NCBI RefSeq assembly: GCF_022436675.1 | Contig: NZ_JAKUJZ010000001.1 | Location: forward strand, 124,001-188,000 | Direction: 5' to 3' | Source: Rheinheimera hassiensis | Lineage (GTDB): Bacteria > Pseudomonadota > Gammaproteobacteria > Enterobacterales > Alteromonadaceae | Length of the DNA stretch: 64,000 nt | Shown here: positions 1 through 42,893 of the stretch, piece after piece | Layout of the letters: each line of letters starts with the position of its first letter | How positions within the stretch are numbered: position 1 is the stretch's first letter | Program-made: the position numbers and the translations under genes | Notes under the pieces: generated by a model | Told to the model about the DNA's origin: nothing | The model's database searches: none | Seen by the model: the letters and a program-made list of their open reading frames with translations, nothing else

Positions 1-926
1 AACTGTTCCGTGCCATTGAAGATGGCGACATTGCCAACATTAATCCCAATGGCAAAATCAGAGTTATTCTCTCAAGAAGAGCTAATCACAATACATTATT
101 GTTAACTGAACGCTGCGATAATCGATGTCAATTCTGCTCTCAACCGCCTAAAGACGGCGATGACAGCTGGCTGCTGGAACAAGCAATTCTGGCAATATGT
201 GCATTTAACTTAGACGGGGAAATTGGTCTTAGTGGGGGCGAGCCATTACTTTATCGTGATGATTTTATAAGGCTACTTGATACCACAATAGAGCACGCAC
301 CTCGCACCAGACTGCACATACTCACTAATGGTCGGGCATTTGCAGATCTGTCATTTACCAAATCAGTAGCACAACGTACAGAACATCTATCAATGAGTTT
401 CGGCATTCCCCTTTATGCTGCCAACAGTGCGGTTCACGATAAGCTCGTCGGCGCAGAAGGTGCTTTTAATGAGACAGTAAAAGGCATAATAAACGCCGGC
501 AACTCAGGAATAAATATCGAACTTCGATTCATCCCTACCAGCGAAAATGCGCAAGAATTGCCATTCGTTGCCGAATACGCCAATAGAGTTTTTACCAACA
601 TTAATCAGATTTCAGTGATGAATATGGAGCCTATGGGGTGGGCACGTAAAAACTGGGATGAGCTGTATTTGCATCCCTTGGAGTACCCTTTAATACTTGA
701 GTATGCAGCAAAAATAACACGGCAAAACAGTACCCCGCTGTACTTGTTTAATTATCCGTTATGCCAGTTACCTGAACACTTGCACGAGTTGTCAGTTCAA
801 TCCATTTCTGACTGGAAAAACTATTATCCGGAAGAATGCTCTTCATGTTCGATGAAAAGCCAATGCGGTGGTTTTTTCGCATCAGCCAAAGGAAAATTTC
901 TTCAATCACCTCAGAGGTATATATGA
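1..926 (+). CDS. hxsC: HxsC, His-Xaa-Ser system radical SAM maturase (5' end outside window)
   Basis: The reading frame is open from base 3 with no start, so the N-terminus lies upstream; 307 codons are visible. The radical SAM CxxxCxxC cluster reads CDNRCQFC (cysteine codons near 114-137) and is followed by SQPPKDGDD and the glycine-rich SGGEPLL strand that contacts SAM. A C-terminal cysteine group (CSSCSMKSQC) resembles an auxiliary cluster site. The N-terminal stretch DGDIANINPNGKIRV and the SQPPK motif are, from memory of the family, typical of HxsC. HxsC is one of two radical SAM enzymes (HxsB, HxsC) thought to modify the repeat protein HxsA; the chemistry is not established. The stop overlaps the hxsA start (ATGA), so the two are translationally coupled. 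hxsB and hxsD are expected just upstream of the window. Confidence 0.85.
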   Translation, partial: LFRAIEDGDIANINPNGKIRVILSRRANHNTLLLTERCDNRCQFCSQPPKDGDDSWLLEQAILAICAFNLDGEIGLSGGEPLLYRDDFIRLLDTTIEHAPRTRLHILTNGRAFADLSFTKSVAQRTEHLSMSFGIPLYAANSAVHDKLVGAEGAFNETVKGIINAGNSGINIELRFIPTSENAQELPFVAEYANRVFTNINQISVMNMEPMGWARKNWDELYLHPLEYPLILEYAAKITRQNSTPLYLFNYPLCQLPEHLHELSVQSISDWKNYYPEECSSCSMKSQCGGFFASAKGKFLQSPQRYI

Positions 927-1504
927 AACGCTTGTTGAATTTAGCTGCTTTCTTACCAGGCTTTTTAAGTCTCAATAGCAACGCCTCTGATTTTGATGCA
1001 GGGCCGGCAGCAGATAATTATCGTGATTTTGGCTTAGATAGCCTGGAGCTATCGCCTTTAAGCAACGAAACACCCATTTATATTGCCGGGCATCGCAGTC
1101 ATCGCTCTCATAGCAGTCACCGAAGCCATAGCTCTCATCGCTCCTCAGCTGGTGGTTCTTATACTCCCTATACGCCACCCACGCCGAAGCCATCTGCTCC
1201 AGAGCCGAAAAAGCCAACACCTGCGAAATCAACACCACCAAGCAGTGCATCGCCTAATGCCTCAACTACAATAAATACTAAGCAAGCTGCGGATACACTG
1301 ACCGACCAACAGAAACGTAAGTTACTGATAATGCGGGTGCAATTGGCTTTATATTCCAGTGGCCATTATTTAGGCGCGATAGACGGCATAATGGGCCCTC
1401 AATTAAGAAGCAGTATTAAAAAATATCGGGCAGAGCATTACTTGATGGATTCAGAGCAAATAGACGGCGGGCTACTTAGCTCTTTGGGCGTTAGTGCCAA
1501 CTAA
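923..1504 (+). CDS. hxsA: HxsA, His-Xaa-Ser repeat protein with peptidoglycan-binding-like domain
   Basis: 193 aa. The ATG at 923 is chosen because AGAGG lies 5 nt upstream and it overlaps the hxsC stop; an upstream in-frame start would read through hxsC. Residues 1-22 form a signal peptide with likely cleavage after SNA. Residues 57-74 are six perfect His-X-Ser triplets (HRS, HRS, HSS, HRS, HSS, HRS; bases 1091-1144). A Pro/Lys/Thr/Ser-rich linker (about 79-115) follows, then a C-terminal domain (about 130-193) resembling PG_binding_1, with YSSGHYLGAIDGIMGP as its core. This architecture matches the HxsA family, the predicted substrate of HxsB/HxsC. The nature of the modification and the function of the exported product are unknown. 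The PG-binding domain suggests location at the cell wall (inference). Confidence 0.87.
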   Translation: MKRLLNLAAFLPGFLSLNSNASDFDAGPAADNYRDFGLDSLELSPLSNETPIYIAGHRSHRSHSSHRSHSSHRSSAGGSYTPYTPPTPKPSAPEPKKPTPAKSTPPSSASPNASTTINTKQAADTLTDQQKRKLLIMRVQLALYSSGHYLGAIDGIMGPQLRSSIKKYRAEHYLMDSEQIDGGLLSSLGVSAN

Positions 1505-1638
1505 TTACCTCCTAGTTTTTATGCGGATTGCTTGGATTTAAAGAAATCGAGAGAAATGGAAAGGACTGGTGTCATTGATATTTCCGCCAAAAAAATATGC
1601 CTTTGCCGAATCAATGTCACTGACCCTATTGATTGATT

Positions 1639-1682
1639 CAAAAAATCGTAAGCGCTCCATTACCCTGCGGGGCGCTTACGAT
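1639..1682 (-). terminator. Rho-independent terminator of the secreted-protein gene at 1690-2616
   Basis: Arms ATCGTAAGCGC (1645-1655) and GCGCTTACGAT (1672-1682) pair perfectly and extend by three more pairs, one a G-T wobble, into the loop. On the minus strand the stem is followed by a run of T (complement of 1640-1644). It lies just after the stop of the minus-strand gene. No comparable T run follows on the plus strand, so it probably does not terminate hxsA. Confidence 0.8.
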
Positions 1683-1689
1683 AGTTTGG

Positions 1690-2616
1690 TTAAAGTGGGT
1701 TTCTACAAACTGTTTCAGTACTATTCGAACAGTCTGTTATTGTTACTGTCCCTTTTGGTACTTGAGTATTGTTAGTATTTGGTACAATCAGTCCAAACGT
1801 TCTCAATGCTGAACGAAATGCATTCCAAGATGAAAGGGACATATTTGAAACATTATAGGTTTTACTTACAAAAGGATTTGCACTTTCCAAATCAAATTGA
1901 TTACCATTTGCATCAATTAATTTTGTAAATTTAAAATGTACGTTGTCATCCATGTCATAAAAGTCAATGTCAGCGTAAACACTGGAGCCATCAGCGAATA
2001 AAAATACTAAAGATGGCATAACCATATTTAAATTCGAGTTATTTGCTATCTTCATTCCCGCACTTAATAGAACAATGCTTTTTTCTAAGAAAGTCTGCCT
2101 AAGATCTGATTTATTAAAATGATTTATAATCTTTGTTTCAACAAAGGATGCTCCGATTATTTCATATCCTGAGCTCACGACGGTAGATGGTATTGATATT
2201 GCTCGTTGATGTACTAATTTTCTCATATCGTTTGTTGCGTTAGCTAAATCAATGAAGTCATTGTATTCTTCACTAGTTAGATTAACCTCACTTATTGAGT
2301 AAGTGTAATTCCAATGGCAATCTTGAATAAATCCACCGCGCCCATCTGGTTCTCTAGATTTAGGATCACAAACTAAATTTGATTTTTTTGATGCCCTGAA
2401 TTTCTTCATTTGAAGACTATCAAAGTTCATGATTCTTATGTAGCGATCGATTATATTAGATTTCCTTTTTGCTTCTTCGTAAAATTGAGCATCTGTTATA
2501 CAACTGGCGCATTCAGTGTGCTCTGAGTCTTTTAGACTAACAGCAGCTTGAGTTTGAAATGAAAAAGAGCAGGCTATAAATGCTAATGATGAAATGGTTA
2601 TAAATAAATTTTTCAT
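1690..2616 (-). CDS. Unrecognised secreted cysteine-containing protein
   Basis: 308 aa; I do not recognise the family. It begins with a Lys then hydrophobic signal peptide (residues 1-24, likely cleaved after QTQA). FIAC at residues 13-16 could alternatively be a poor lipobox. The mature part has a CxxC (ECASC) near its start, further Cys in LVCDP and QDCHW, and two near the C-terminus (TDCSN, TVCRN), suggesting disulfides in the periplasm or outside the cell. The C-terminal third is Asp/Asn-rich with beta-like stretches (FLFADGSSVYADIDFYD). The gene and its upstream region are visibly richer in A+T than the neighbours, a sign of recent acquisition. It converges on hxsA, has its own terminator, and sits beside transposase debris. 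Confidence 0.75.
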   Translation of the reverse strand: MKNLFITISSLAFIACSFSFQTQAAVSLKDSEHTECASCITDAQFYEEAKRKSNIIDRYIRIMNFDSLQMKKFRASKKSNLVCDPKSREPDGRGGFIQDCHWNYTYSISEVNLTSEEYNDFIDLANATNDMRKLVHQRAISIPSTVVSSGYEIIGASFVETKIINHFNKSDLRQTFLEKSIVLLSAGMKIANNSNLNMVMPSLVFLFADGSSVYADIDFYDMDDNVHFKFTKLIDANGNQFDLESANPFVSKTYNVSNMSLSSWNAFRSALRTFGLIVPNTNNTQVPKGTVTITDCSNSTETVCRNPL

Positions 2617-2858
2617 AAATTAATTATTCTCGATAACAATAGAGTCAAGTAAGTTGCATAAATATAATAAAAAATGCAACAATTTCACTTTAGCATATTA
2701 AAGGAAAATATTAAAGCTATTTTAGGAACAAATTGCGATGTTTATGTTTGCGTGGTAGATGCTTATTGCTATTGTGTTTTGTTATTTATTTACATGCCCT
2801 TATCAGATCTCTAGAGAGGTTCCGCTGGGATTCTGGATCATGGTGAGATTACGAGTGT
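2617..2858. other. AT-rich non-coding segment between the secreted-protein gene and transposase remnant
   Basis: No convincing gene is seen. Near 2652-2680 an inverted repeat GTTGCAT...ATGCAAC is separated by an A/T-only spacer, upstream of the 1690-2616 gene. It could be an operator or simply a low-complexity palindrome. The base composition matches the adjoining AT-rich gene rather than the rest of the window. Confidence 0.4.
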
Positions 2859-3118
2859 TCATTTAGTCACCACACTCATGCCAGCTTCCAACACCGCATT
2901 AAGATAGTCTGCATTCATTAAAGCCTGACGTTGCTTTCTTCTGATACTCATTTTTCGCTTCTCAGCGCGTAACATAGTCAAGCTAAAGTGTCGCATCGAG
3001 GCAAGATTGGCTGCAGGATTACCACGGTAAATCTGGCACACATCCTTACCTAAGCTCACATCCAGCAACCTGTGTACCTGATTTTCGATCCTCGAATGCT
3101 CTCGCACTGCACGGAATT
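2859..3118 (-). pseudogene. C-terminal fragment of an ISAs1-type transposase
   Basis: About 85 codons are readable (from FRAVREHSRIEN to the stop at 2859). They resemble the end of ISAs1-family DDE transposases: a REHSRIENQVHRLLDV block (family form R.HWGIEN..HW.LDV, carrying the catalytic Glu), then RGNPAANLASMRHFSLTMLR and a basic SIRRKQRQALMNADYL tail. The catalytic core upstream is missing. The frame runs into TAATAA exactly where the palindromic element at 3119-3182 begins, so the gene was truncated there. It cannot encode an active transposase. Confidence 0.75.
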
Positions 3119-3182
3119 ATTAGGATCAGATAAGAACTAAACCTGATACCTCACAGTAATTTCAGTTTTATCTGACACCCTT
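3119..3182. repeat. Palindromic repeat element, copy A
   Basis: A ~64-bp sequence whose ends are imperfect inverted repeats (TTAGGATCAGATAAGAACTAA against TTCAGTTTTATCTGACACCC read in reverse complement), with the core ACCTGATACCTCA. A second copy with the same core lies at 3980-4042. It abuts the broken end of the transposase fragment. It looks like a small non-autonomous or REP/MITE-like element; no family name is assigned. Confidence 0.65.
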
Positions 3183-3976: not shown

Positions 3977-3979
3977 AAT

Positions 3980-4042
3980 ATTAGGGGCAGATAAAAATTA
4001 AACCTGATACCTCAACATAATTTAGTTTTGCTCTGACCTTAT
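3980..4042. repeat. Palindromic repeat element, copy B
   Basis: Same core (AAACCTGATACCTCA) and same imperfect terminal inversion as 3119-3182: the left end ATTAGGGGCAGATAAAAATT resembles the reverse complement of the right end AGTTTTGCTCTGACCTTAT. It lies between the two 40-bp direct repeats. Confidence 0.7.
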
Positions 4043-40619: not shown

Positions 40620-42893
40620 ATGAAGCATGGTTTAGCGCTGTTTTTTTTCGTTCCGGTTGGTGCTGCCTGCTTTGACAGCCATGCTCAGACTTCGCAAGCG
40701 GCTATGTGTTATTTGCCAGTCCAGCCCCCGGTAGCATTTAACCAGCTAAATGCGAAGGACCCGGCAATCCGCATCAGTTCTGAAACTGTCAATCTATCTG
40801 GCAATCAAACTGCTGAGTTTATCGGCAATGTTGAAATAAGTTATCGTGATACCTTGTTAATTGCTCCCAAAGCGAATTTTAGTAGCAGCCAACAAACGGT
40901 GTTAGCTGCAGGGGGAATCGAGTACTTTAACAGTTCCATTCAGGTAAGCGGCTCAGAATTTAGCGCCGATCTTATTAATGATAAAGCCAGCCTTAATGAT
41001 GCCAACTACCGGTTTTTAGAACAGGCTGGCCGCGGCTATGCTGCTGAGCTTACTGCAACAGAGCAGGTGCTGACATTAGACAGCGCATTATTTACTACCT
41101 GCCCGGTTGACGATAATAGCTGGGCATTGCATGCCAGCGAGATCCGCATTGAAGAAAGCGAAGGCTGGGGCGAAGCCCGCAATGCCGTGTTTAAAATTAA
41201 AGATATTCCGGTATTTTATCTGCCTTATCTGACCTTCCCGGTCAACGAGAACAGACGTAGCGGCCTTTTACTACCCAAAATCGGTAACTCGCAGCGCTTA
41301 GGTTTGGATCTTGAGCAGCCGTATTATATTAATCTGGCTGAAAACTATGATATGACGCTGACACCGCGTTATATGAGTAAACGCGGCACTCAGCTCAAAT
41401 CAGAGTTTCGTTATCTGACCGAGCAACACCGCGGTAATTTACAGCTGGAATATTTACACTCTGACAATGACAAGCCATCCGACTTTGGCAGCCGTTATCT
41501 GGGACACCTTAGCCATTTAAGCGATTTTACATCAGAGATCAGAGGCTACATTGACTTTACCGACGTCAGCGACGATGCCTATTTAACCGAACTGGGCTCA
41601 GACTACAGCAACCAAAGCGATACCCAGTTGCTGCGCCAGGCCGCGTTAAGTTATTACGGTACTCAGGTGCATTCGCACCTTAAAGTGCAGGGCTTTGAGG
41701 TGCTGGGTAATTATAGTAATGCTTACAGTACCTTGCCCGAACTCAGCCTGAGTTCAGCCAAGCCTTACAGCCTGTTACCCAATGTTAATTTTAACTGGCA
41801 GGCGCAATACGCTCATTTTGAAAACAGTACAGCGCAAATCAGCAATGCCGATCGCCTGCATATCGAGCCTGGTATTGAAATTCCGTTTATCACACCAGCA
41901 CTGGAGCTTACGGCTCAAGCCAGTCTGATGTATACCTATTACCAGCAAGACTTTGATGATAACAATATCGATTACATCAGCAGTAGCGTCACCCGTACCA
42001 TACCTAAGGTACGTTTGCATTCCCGCGTAAATTTTGAGCGCGAATACGAATGGTTTGGCGAACCGGCCCTGCATACGTTTGAACCACAGATCCAGTATCT
42101 GTATATCCCCTACCGCGATCAGAGTAATATCGGTTTGTATGACACTACCCGTCTGCAGGATGACTACTACGGCTTATTCCGGGAAAACCGCTATTCTGGC
42201 CTGGATCGGATTAACGAAGCAAACCAGCTTACAGTAGGCTGGACTACCCGTTTTTACGATAATATCGATAACGAGTTATTTCGTTTTAGCCTGGGCCAGA
42301 TTTTCTTTCTGTCAGATCCCAAACCACAACCTGACAAAACAGAAACCGTTGACGATCTGACATCAACAGAATCTATGCTGGCTGCCGAGATGATTTGGCA
42401 CTGGTTCAGTAAATGGTATTTCAGCACAGCCGTGCAGTACGATATCGACAGCGATCAGTTAATTAAAAGCAATGCCTCGCTGGATTACCGTGGCAGTGGT
42501 AAAAGCCTGTTCCAGTTGAACCATAGGTACAGTCGGGCAGTCTCAGGTCAGGAAATCCAACAAATGGGCGTGCTGGGAACTATGCCAGTAAGTGACAACT
42601 GGCAACTGGTAGGTACTTACTATCGGGATGTGACAAATAATCGTATGATAGACGCCAGTTTTGGTGTGCAATACGAATCATGCTGCTGGGCTGTGCGTTT
42701 AGTTGCCCGACGTCAGGTACTGACTGATCTTGAACTACCGGTTGATGCTATTAATGGCACCAGCAGGCTGGATAGCAGCATTGGATTACAATTCGTCCTT
42801 AAAGGCTTTGGTGACAGTGCTGGCTTCGGTGTAACCGACATGCTGTCTAACGGTATTTTCAGTTACCGCAAGCCATACTTATTAACTAATTGA
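40620..42893 (+). CDS. lptD: LptD, outer-membrane LPS-assembly protein
   Basis: 757 aa. Signal peptide ending in DSHA. An OstA/LptA-like jellyroll (~55-165, ISSETVNLSGNQTAEFIGNV, YRDTLLIAPKANFSS) precedes the 26-strand LptD barrel (~220-750), with FKIKDIPVFYLPYLTFPVNE and RSGLLLPKIGNS. Family cysteines near TTCPVDD and YESCCWAV are candidates for the LptD disulfides. With LptE it inserts LPS in the outer leaflet. It heads the lptD-surA-pdxA-rsmA-apaG-apaH run; surA follows after 11 nt. Confidence 0.95.
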   Translation: MKHGLALFFFVPVGAACFDSHAQTSQAAMCYLPVQPPVAFNQLNAKDPAIRISSETVNLSGNQTAEFIGNVEISYRDTLLIAPKANFSSSQQTVLAAGGIEYFNSSIQVSGSEFSADLINDKASLNDANYRFLEQAGRGYAAELTATEQVLTLDSALFTTCPVDDNSWALHASEIRIEESEGWGEARNAVFKIKDIPVFYLPYLTFPVNENRRSGLLLPKIGNSQRLGLDLEQPYYINLAENYDMTLTPRYMSKRGTQLKSEFRYLTEQHRGNLQLEYLHSDNDKPSDFGSRYLGHLSHLSDFTSEIRGYIDFTDVSDDAYLTELGSDYSNQSDTQLLRQAALSYYGTQVHSHLKVQGFEVLGNYSNAYSTLPELSLSSAKPYSLLPNVNFNWQAQYAHFENSTAQISNADRLHIEPGIEIPFITPALELTAQASLMYTYYQQDFDDNNIDYISSSVTRTIPKVRLHSRVNFEREYEWFGEPALHTFEPQIQYLYIPYRDQSNIGLYDTTRLQDDYYGLFRENRYSGLDRINEANQLTVGWTTRFYDNIDNELFRFSLGQIFFLSDPKPQPDKTETVDDLTSTESMLAAEMIWHWFSKWYFSTAVQYDIDSDQLIKSNASLDYRGSGKSLFQLNHRYSRAVSGQEIQQMGVLGTMPVSDNWQLVGTYYRDVTNNRMIDASFGVQYESCCWAVRLVARRQVLTDLELPVDAINGTSRLDSSIGLQFVLKGFGDSAGFGVTDMLSNGIFSYRKPYLLTN

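Follow-up and report, generated by a model that had tools for sequence, protein, structure and literature searches.

A four-gene His-Xaa-Ser operon, very probably acquired horizontally, in Rheinheimera hassiensis

Operon layout and family assignment

We analyzed a 64,000-nucleotide stretch of the Rheinheimera hassiensis genome (contig NZ_JAKUJZ010000001.1, positions 124,001 to 188,000; hereafter the window), which opens inside an operon of the His-Xaa-Ser (Hxs) system, named for the His-x-Ser (H-x-S) triplets of its HxsA protein. The operon, hxsD-hxsB-hxsC-hxsA, lies on the plus strand and consists of four open frames whose successive ends overlap, as read directly from the sequence. It starts 1,843 bases upstream of the window, and we refer to the stretch fetched to add this upstream contig as L002 (window base 1 is L002:12001). 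The first-pass annotation of the window had placed the locus at bases 1 to 1504, a range that holds the end of hxsC and all of hxsA, with the rest of the operon upstream of the window. Coordinates without a prefix are those of the window.

L002:10158-10436, plus strand: hxsD, 92 amino acids; TIGR03976, 80 bits (NCBIfam curated cut-off 50)
L002:10433-11830, plus strand: hxsB, 465 amino acids; TIGR03978, 525 bits (curated cut-off 370)
L002:11823-12926, plus strand: hxsC, 367 amino acids; TIGR03977, 383 bits (curated cut-off 267.9)
1-926, plus strand: part of hxsC inside the window, the last 926 of its 1,104 bases; the gene starts 178 bases upstream of the window
114-137, plus strand: CDNRCQFC, radical S-adenosylmethionine (SAM) cluster motif (C98, C102 and C105 of HxsC)
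762-866, plus strand: HxsC stretch with C314, C339, C342 and C348, likely ligands of one auxiliary cluster
L002:12923-13504 (window 923-1504), plus strand: hxsA, 193 amino acids; TIGR03979, 166.8 bits (curated cut-off 121.65)
923-988, plus strand: signal-peptide-like N terminus of HxsA with an LPGF core, recognized by composition; signal function predicted
1049-1090, plus strand: pre-repeat block, LSPLSNETPIYIAG; its pattern occurs in 35/37 HxsA proteins, directly before the array
1091-1144, plus strand: H-x-S array, the presumed modified core (HRS HRS HSS HRS HSS HRS)
1310-1492, plus strand: peptidoglycan-binding-like domain of HxsA (PG_binding_1 profile)

What the first-pass annotation had read from the sequence is confirmed: the radical SAM cysteine motif CDNRCQFC, the ATGA at 923-926 in which the hxsC stop codon and the hxsA start codon overlap, and six consecutive H-x-S triplets (HRSHRSHSSHRSHSSHRS) are all present. 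The four-base coupling of hxsC and hxsA also occurs in the Klebsiella copy. Its interpretation as an Hxs system is supported by sequence comparison and withstood both tests set for it, since hxsB and hxsD were sought upstream and lie directly there, and all four proteins score above NCBIfam curated cut-offs. Profile searches place the window enzyme in the HxsC family and in no other radical SAM family, with the next-best profile reaching 47–48 bits vs. 383–384 for HxsC. We conclude that the locus is very probably a complete, horizontally acquired copy of a known system, the HxsDBCA operon.

Relatives and gene orders

The Hxs system was reportedly first described by Haft and Basu. It is widespread: a scan of species genomes returned 425 related loci. 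We kept 80 of these 425 relatives, and locus counts below use 85 loci. HxsD is present in 79/85 loci and in 0/14 control genomes. Among the six loci without it, four are represented by stretches that end before or within the place of hxsD (L004, L005, L074, and L115), leaving L100 and L120. An open reading frame (ORF) with at least three H-x-S triplets occurs in 81/85 loci, and the stretches examined for L091, L094, L118, and L120 hold no such ORF. HxsB and HxsC are kept together in 83/85 loci, with differing auxiliary cysteine patterns.

Our copy resembles the described system in its four genes, D-B-C-A order, gene overlaps, H-x-S array, and peptidoglycan-binding-like HxsA C terminus. It differs in having six triplets and in lacking genes for a MauG-like protein, TIGR03982, or DUF6119 after hxsA. 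MauG-like (TIGR03981) and TIGR03982 genes adjoin hxs in the same 14/85 loci, mainly in marine Gammaproteobacteria; these 14 include both L005 and Alteromonas sp. a30 (L076), which have identical HxsC proteins, probably represent one genome, and are both counted among the 85. An Hxs-specific MauG encoded elsewhere in the R. hassiensis genome was also sought and rejected, the best match, on another contig, scoring 87.6 bits vs. a cut-off of 340.

Two loci depart from the usual gene content. In Providencia stuartii NCTC11800, hxsB is split over three open frames (L065:4609-6005) and so appears disrupted, whereas the hxsD and hxsC frames remain open. Legionella feeleii carries an HxsC-like gene (L120:5857-6921); the stretch examined encodes neither HxsB nor HxsD nor any H-x-S protein, and a search of the genome for HxsD gave no match.

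The H-x-S array and conserved blocks of HxsA

Repeat counts include every plus-strand ORF with at least three triplets, 86 ORFs in 81/85 loci. Chance is ruled out as the origin of the array, as 100,000 residue shuffles of HxsA gave runs of three triplets at most (five shuffles). When the window was read in all six frames, just one further run of at least two triplets appeared, a pair at 41505. In our copy the six triplets are written in six different DNA spellings. Similarly, the 47 repeat ORFs that follow hxsC hold 248 triplets, of which 243 have DNA spellings distinct within their genes, and only 108 distinct protein triplets; their arrays use both TCN and AGY serine codons. We therefore reject DNA slippage as what keeps the repeat. 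The diverse DNA spellings, few protein triplets, and use of both serine codon families together indicate that selection on the protein, not DNA copying, keeps the array. The middle residue of the triplet, with the array as defined here, is R, S, G, A, Y, and others. Triplet number is five in 35 of these 47 ORFs and six in our HxsA.

An alternative gene order, A-D-B-C, has the same B, C, and D families and again an H-x-S array, in substrates that are mostly short and resemble HxsA2/A3. Here the H-x-S protein stands just before hxsD; the 39 repeat ORFs that precede hxsC hold 233 triplets, and the last triplet is HYS in 30/39, unlike the HRS that ends our array. Five loci carry two H-x-S repeat ORFs each (L098, L099, L102, L108, and L113). 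The two overlap in L098, and L099 and L108 carry one ahead of hxsD and the other behind hxsC.

Two further blocks of HxsA are conserved. We aligned 37 of 45 HxsA references, leaving out L063 (contig end), L065 (start unclear), L068 (near copy), and L099 twice, L100, and L108 twice as another type; identical proteins and L077 had been dropped earlier. LPGF lies in the first 25 residues of 32/37 proteins and GF in 35/37. Such conservation within a signal peptide is unusual, which suggests that the LPGF stretch may double as a leader read by HxsB or HxsD. Column identity in the pre-repeat block averages 0.69 (16 representatives) vs. 0.32 in the stretch ahead of it. The earlier description of HxsA as exported is borne out as far as a signal-peptide-like start read from sequence without a predictor, so that export itself is a prediction. 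Likewise, the claimed peptidoglycan-binding-like domain is a family feature, with 36/37 proteins matching PG_binding_1 (E <= 0.01), but our own copy falls below the Pfam gathering score.

HxsB, HxsC, and HxsD

Both enzymes retain the cysteines expected of radical SAM proteins. HxsC keeps C98/C102/C105 in 84/85 rows, the miss being a gap, and C314/C339/C342/C348 in 85/85. HxsB keeps C96/C100/C103 in 83/83 rows, C402/C405/C411 in 82/83, and C435 in 81/83, again with gaps as the misses. Having a CxxxCxxC motif and C-terminal auxiliary cysteines, HxsB and HxsC both qualify as radical SAM/SPASM-twitch proteins, and each probably carries a radical SAM cluster plus a single auxiliary cluster. Beyond these sets HxsB has no conserved cysteine, the next-best columns reaching 42 and 34 of 83 rows. 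HxsB and HxsC have been called putative maturases, after Haft and Basu (PMC9062424).

A structural model of HxsB was built for a Klebsiella oxytoca relative (54 aligned rows, from 54 of 80 references; predicted local distance difference test score, pLDDT, 88.5). Its best near-full-length solved match is the SCIFF maturase CteB (5why; Z 30.8, root-mean-square deviation (rmsd) 3.7, 388 aligned, residues 5-449), tied over the catalytic part with an anaerobic sulfatase maturase (4k38; Z 30.6, rmsd 3.0, 352 aligned, residues 82-461). ChlB, TigE, and SuiB follow in the structural comparison, for which Foldseek was also used; TigE (8vpo) matches with Z 24.2, rmsd 4.3, and 387 aligned over residues 1-450. 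The first 80 residues are modeled as strand-strand-strand-helix-helix-helix, the topology of a PqqD-type recognition domain, and the modeled N-terminal part may be a peptide-recognition (PqqD-like) element.

HxsD was modeled for the same relative (60 of 76 references, pLDDT 94). In VIA, designed proteins lead the matches (Z 8.9 and 8.1), followed by ferredoxin-like, KH, and other widespread arrangements; we treat all of these as uninformative. We rejected HxsD as a PqqD-type recognition protein, given the strand-helix-strand-strand-helix order of its model and no significant solved match; any role assigned to HxsD is a guess.

Probable horizontal gain of the operon

Several observations support horizontal gain of the operon, as judged from sequence comparison. 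HxsD occurs in only this genome of 31 in the genus. In a sample of 369 genomes from the class, including this one, it exceeds the cut-off in three (five at E <= 0.001), and HxsC exceeds its cut-off in 3/196 genomes of the family, counting this one and L005. In a quick tree built from 85 HxsC rows, with branch support from the Shimodaira–Hasegawa-like approximate likelihood ratio test (SH-aLRT) only, our HxsC groups with Enterobacterales and Vibrio (SH-aLRT 97) and is separated from its two family relatives; it is at most 55% identical to any other row. Vertical inheritance within the host family was rejected by an approximately unbiased (AU) test that held our HxsC with L004, L005, and L076 (P = 4e-6). 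The rejection is weaker once the Pseudoalteromonas row L077 joins that grouping (P = 0.022).

The insertion site points the same way. Seven congener stretches at this site gave no blastn match (E <= 1e-5) to the operon. Between lactamase/isomerase genes on one side and a methyltransferase gene on the other, the intervening content differs among the congener stretches that span both sides, marking a variable site; the contig of L138 ends before the right side, and L139 has no methyltransferase gene match. When seven hotspot genes of congeners were compared with Pfam, three matched: DUF2971, DUF5677, and an endonuclease family, the last below the gathering score. Copies of a small palindromic repeat bracket the operon. 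The following features of the surrounding DNA bear on how the operon may have moved.

L002:7965-8046: small palindromic repeat, third copy
L002:9985-10030, upstream of the window: small palindromic repeat, left copy
1575-1635 (within window 1553-1640, L002:13553-13640), plus strand: small palindromic repeat, right copy, core at 1609-1635
2859-3107, minus strand: ISAs1 transposase fragment, last 46 of 314 profile positions, 40.3 bits (full-length cut-off 70)

Three copies of the repeat lie within 6 kb and few elsewhere, with eight occurrences of the core in the genome at up to two mismatches. The congeners G206 and G210 carry a single copy in the corresponding position, following the isomerase gene. 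Exchange at these repeats is a plausible route of gain. Accordingly, the suggestion that the locus is probably mobile holds for horizontal gain, given genus distribution, tree, and repeat-bracketed variable site, but not for a vehicle, as no transposition or integration gene could be assigned to the segment. The surroundings had also been called AT-rich and transposase-scarred. The first is real but moderate (operon GC content 43.3% vs. a mean of 48.6%, SD 2.7; 4/122 windows of the same size have GC as low), and bases 1505-3100 reach 35.5%. For the second, one place was examined, and it is the C-terminal ISAs1 transposase fragment.

Hxs operons as cargo of mobile elements

In other hosts, hxs is carried by plasmids, P2-like prophages, and defense-bearing islands. 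In tblastn searches HxsC relatives occur in 430/72,556 plasmid records (E <= 1e-20), of which 345 are conjugative and 332 are from Klebsiella, and in two phage records (E <= 1e-10), one of them a Leptospira phage that encodes an H-x-S protein together with hxsD, hxsB, and hxsC. Of 5,426 complete Escherichia coli genomes, 153 match the Klebsiella plasmid operon, on the chromosome every time. We studied 12 of these neighborhoods, spread evenly over the list of 153. Three are in P2-like prophages beside an ogr-like gene ("P2-like" being our reading of the annotation), four in islands at ssrA, four in related relaxase/recombinase islands, and one in an insertion sequence (IS)-flanked island near a tRNA-Thr gene; L156 retains hxsA alone. 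In the literature, the four hxs genes are listed alongside conjugation and phage genes in Pseudomonas aeruginosa (PMC8446631), and in Vibrio parahaemolyticus the system is reported from an island site that varies (PMC6537148).

Directly after hxsA, six of the 12 E. coli loci have a DUF6119/TIGR04141 gene (frameshifted in L150) and two a nuclease-helicase pair. Two examples are as follows.

L149:10467-12098, same strand as hxsA: DUF6119/TIGR04141 gene after hxsA
L146:12417-14024, same strand as hxsA: DUF6119/TIGR04141 gene after hxsA

Among 26 Enterobacterales loci of the species scan, some on contigs that end early, DUF6119 directly follows hxsA in 13 and GajA in one ("directly" meaning an ORF start within about 110 bases); Gabija genes sometimes take the place of the DUF6119 gene adjoining hxsA. 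The two DUF6119 lineages that we tested occur in 29 and 60 of the 5,426 E. coli genomes, and a joined hxsA-DUF6119 query is covered over at least 80% of its length in 31 and 66, counts that are not independent since islands are shared. Among the literature matches listed we found neither a link between hxs and DUF6119 nor a paper on DUF6119, and a search by its names gave only work on plant MADS-box genes.

These neighborhoods raise the idea that Hxs serves conflicts between mobile elements, with wall-bound HxsA acting as a barrier or sensor that blocks rival phages or plasmids and, in Enterobacterales, DUF6119 as a fifth, effector-like part. All 12 E. coli neighborhoods lie in prophages, integrase/relaxase islands, or the IS-flanked island. 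In a PADLOC scan of ten neighbor proteins from five of the twelve loci, eight matched: Gabija GajA and GajB (L145 and L153), Pycsar (L149), and Lamassu-like proteins (L150), so that 4/12 loci have defense matches, and DUF6119 follows hxsA in half of the Enterobacterales loci. Nevertheless, this support is association, mobile cargo is generally rich in defense genes, the two DUF6119 proteins scanned match no PADLOC model, and our own locus has no DUF6119 gene after hxsA. We consider such a function distinctly unlikely. Our operon itself matches no defense model in PADLOC-DB 2.0.0, with weak viperin cross-matches of HxsB and HxsC (E 1.1e-5 to 7.9e-9; HxsC scores 29.5 bits against NCBIfam viperin, cut-off 180).

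Proposed mechanism and chemistry of the array

By their sequences, the operon's products are four Hxs-family proteins, with HxsB and HxsC keeping cluster cysteines and HxsA resembling a substrate. The system itself is a known one. We found no study of the Hxs product in the literature, an absence that is weak since mainly open-access papers, some in part, were covered. In the mechanism that we propose, HxsB and HxsC, aided by the small HxsD, would bind pre-HxsA while it is still in the cytoplasm. HxsB, with its recognition-like N terminus, radical SAM core, and auxiliary cluster, would act together with HxsC through 5'-deoxyadenosyl radicals on each His-x-Ser triplet. Modification would precede export, after which HxsA would be held on peptidoglycan by its C-terminal domain, so that the end product would be a protein attached to the wall and bearing a row of modified His/Ser units rather than a small secreted peptide. 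Where relatives have a MauG-like di-heme partner, it may carry out further oxidation in the periplasm; our copy has no such partner nearby or over the cut-off.

For the chemistry of the array, three readings fit: a ring, formylglycine, and some other radical modification. The last, which we rate at nearly an even chance, covers epimerization, methylene or ether links, links through His nitrogen, or a two-step reaction with separate tasks for HxsB and HxsC. It would accommodate two unlike radical SAM enzymes that are retained together with different auxiliary cysteine patterns, and among non-Hxs profiles HxsB scores best with that of the ranthipeptide maturase PapB (69.1 bits). However, a thioether within our array is excluded, as the array has no Cys, and nothing else discriminates among these options. 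The same lack of Cys separates our copy from CteB and other SPASM enzymes of ribosomally synthesized and post-translationally modified peptides, which perform thioether chemistry on Cys even though the HxsB fold is alike, including its N-terminal part. TvgB, as predicted for the Hxs enzymes, is a radical SAM enzyme acting on many repeat copies, where it modifies Val side chains of Thr-Val-Gly-Gly repeats to a cyclopropane product (PMC11002830).

As our preferred chemistry, we tentatively propose one C-C cross-link per triplet, joining the His ring to the Ser beta carbon (i, i+2), to give a chain of three-residue rings. A His-Ser ring would explain why His and Ser stand two apart with a variable middle residue. 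The triceptide maturases XncB, OscB, MscB, HaaB, and YhhB act on an i/i+2 motif with an aromatic first residue, like H-x-S. One paper describes His in the first and Ser in the third position of triceptide motifs, each separately, as well as rings between residues i and i+2 for the pairs His-Ala, His-Arg, and Phe-Ser (PMC11002830). If the rings are real, HxsA would display a series of strained rings while bound to the wall, in contrast to the released peptides that are usual for such enzymes.

Several observations weigh against the proposed mechanism. Unlike triceptide maturases, HxsB falls below the cut-offs of the YhhB profile (NF041707; 51.2 bits, cut-off 445) and the GrrM/OscB profile (TIGR04261; 39.5, cut-off 310), and the ring in HxsA is only predicted. 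Since these scores are also below those for PapB, CcpM (65.5), and the sulfatase maturase (TIGR03942; 64.6, cut-off 349.45), family affinity does not favor ring formation. A ring mechanism leaves unexplained why two radical SAM enzymes serve one kind of triplet, and no modified HxsA product has been seen. As for recognition, the PqqD-like reading of HxsB comes from one model, only CteB and TigE align to its start, a part that by the warning of the comparison tool is barely tested, PqqD in Pfam is unmatched at E <= 1, and the HxsD model has no solved match at E <= 0.001. Wall attachment is tempered by the PG_binding_1 score of our HxsA, 16.6 bits against a gathering score of 23.

Formylglycine formation is an unlikely outcome, in which HxsB would act like an anaerobic sulfatase maturase and convert each triplet Ser to formylglycine, leaving HxsA with a row of aldehydes able to react with His, with lysine, or with a ligand. 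In its favor, every triplet ends in Ser, and sulfatase maturase structures tie with CteB as the closest HxsB fold. In addition, HxsB D357, kept in 82/83 rows, aligns with D277 of the sulfatase maturase, presumably its catalytic base. The structural match starts at HxsB residue 82 and omits the N-terminal part. Against this reading, HxsB has one auxiliary cysteine set whereas the sulfatase maturase carries a second auxiliary cluster, the HxsB score is far below the sulfatase maturase cut-off, and both the His and the second enzyme HxsC go unexplained.

It is also possible, if quite improbable, that the operon arrived horizontally and decays as a passenger no longer used in this host. Its restriction to one genome of the genus and the nearby ISAs1 fragment are in keeping with decay, but the four frames are open, cluster cysteines are kept, and the array is retained in six different DNA spellings. 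Finally, His-rich arrays bind Zn, Cu, or Ni, yet we regard it as very improbable that the array is a periplasmic metal-binding motif and that the radical SAM enzymes have some other target, because hxsA is coupled to hxsC here and in Klebsiella, the other gene order has the H-x-S protein just before hxsD, and H-x-S ORFs in 81/85 loci imply that the substrate travels with the enzymes.

As a compact, open four-gene copy, the R. hassiensis locus could be expressed in laboratory E. coli. Our comparison narrows the question to a mass change per H-x-S triplet, to whether LPGF and the pre-repeat block serve recognition, and to whether DUF6119 is a partner.

Other features near the operon

1639-1688, plus strand: strong hairpin downstream of hxsA, a possible transcription end, with no T run after it
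1690-2616, minus strand: ORF of 308 amino acids with a signal-peptide-like start

The fold of 1620-1710 has a z-score of -5.45, and 0/200 shuffles were equally stable. Promoter and terminator scans were near chance (12 found vs. 9.8 expected and 5 found vs. 3.1 expected, respectively). The protein encoded at 1690-2616 matches no NCBIfam or Pfam family and has weak kin in just 3 of 195 other family genomes sampled. Farther along, two 59-base repeats that are 80% identical (3118-3176 and 3979-4037) flank a thiopurine methyltransferase gene. Upstream of the operon, a single open frame on the plus strand (L002:8092-9951) combines a subclass B3 metallo-beta-lactamase (278 bits, cut-off 240) with a cyclophilin-type prolyl isomerase. 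In congeners the lactamase and isomerase parts match separate places, and G206 and G210 have a short lactamase stretch after the isomerase.

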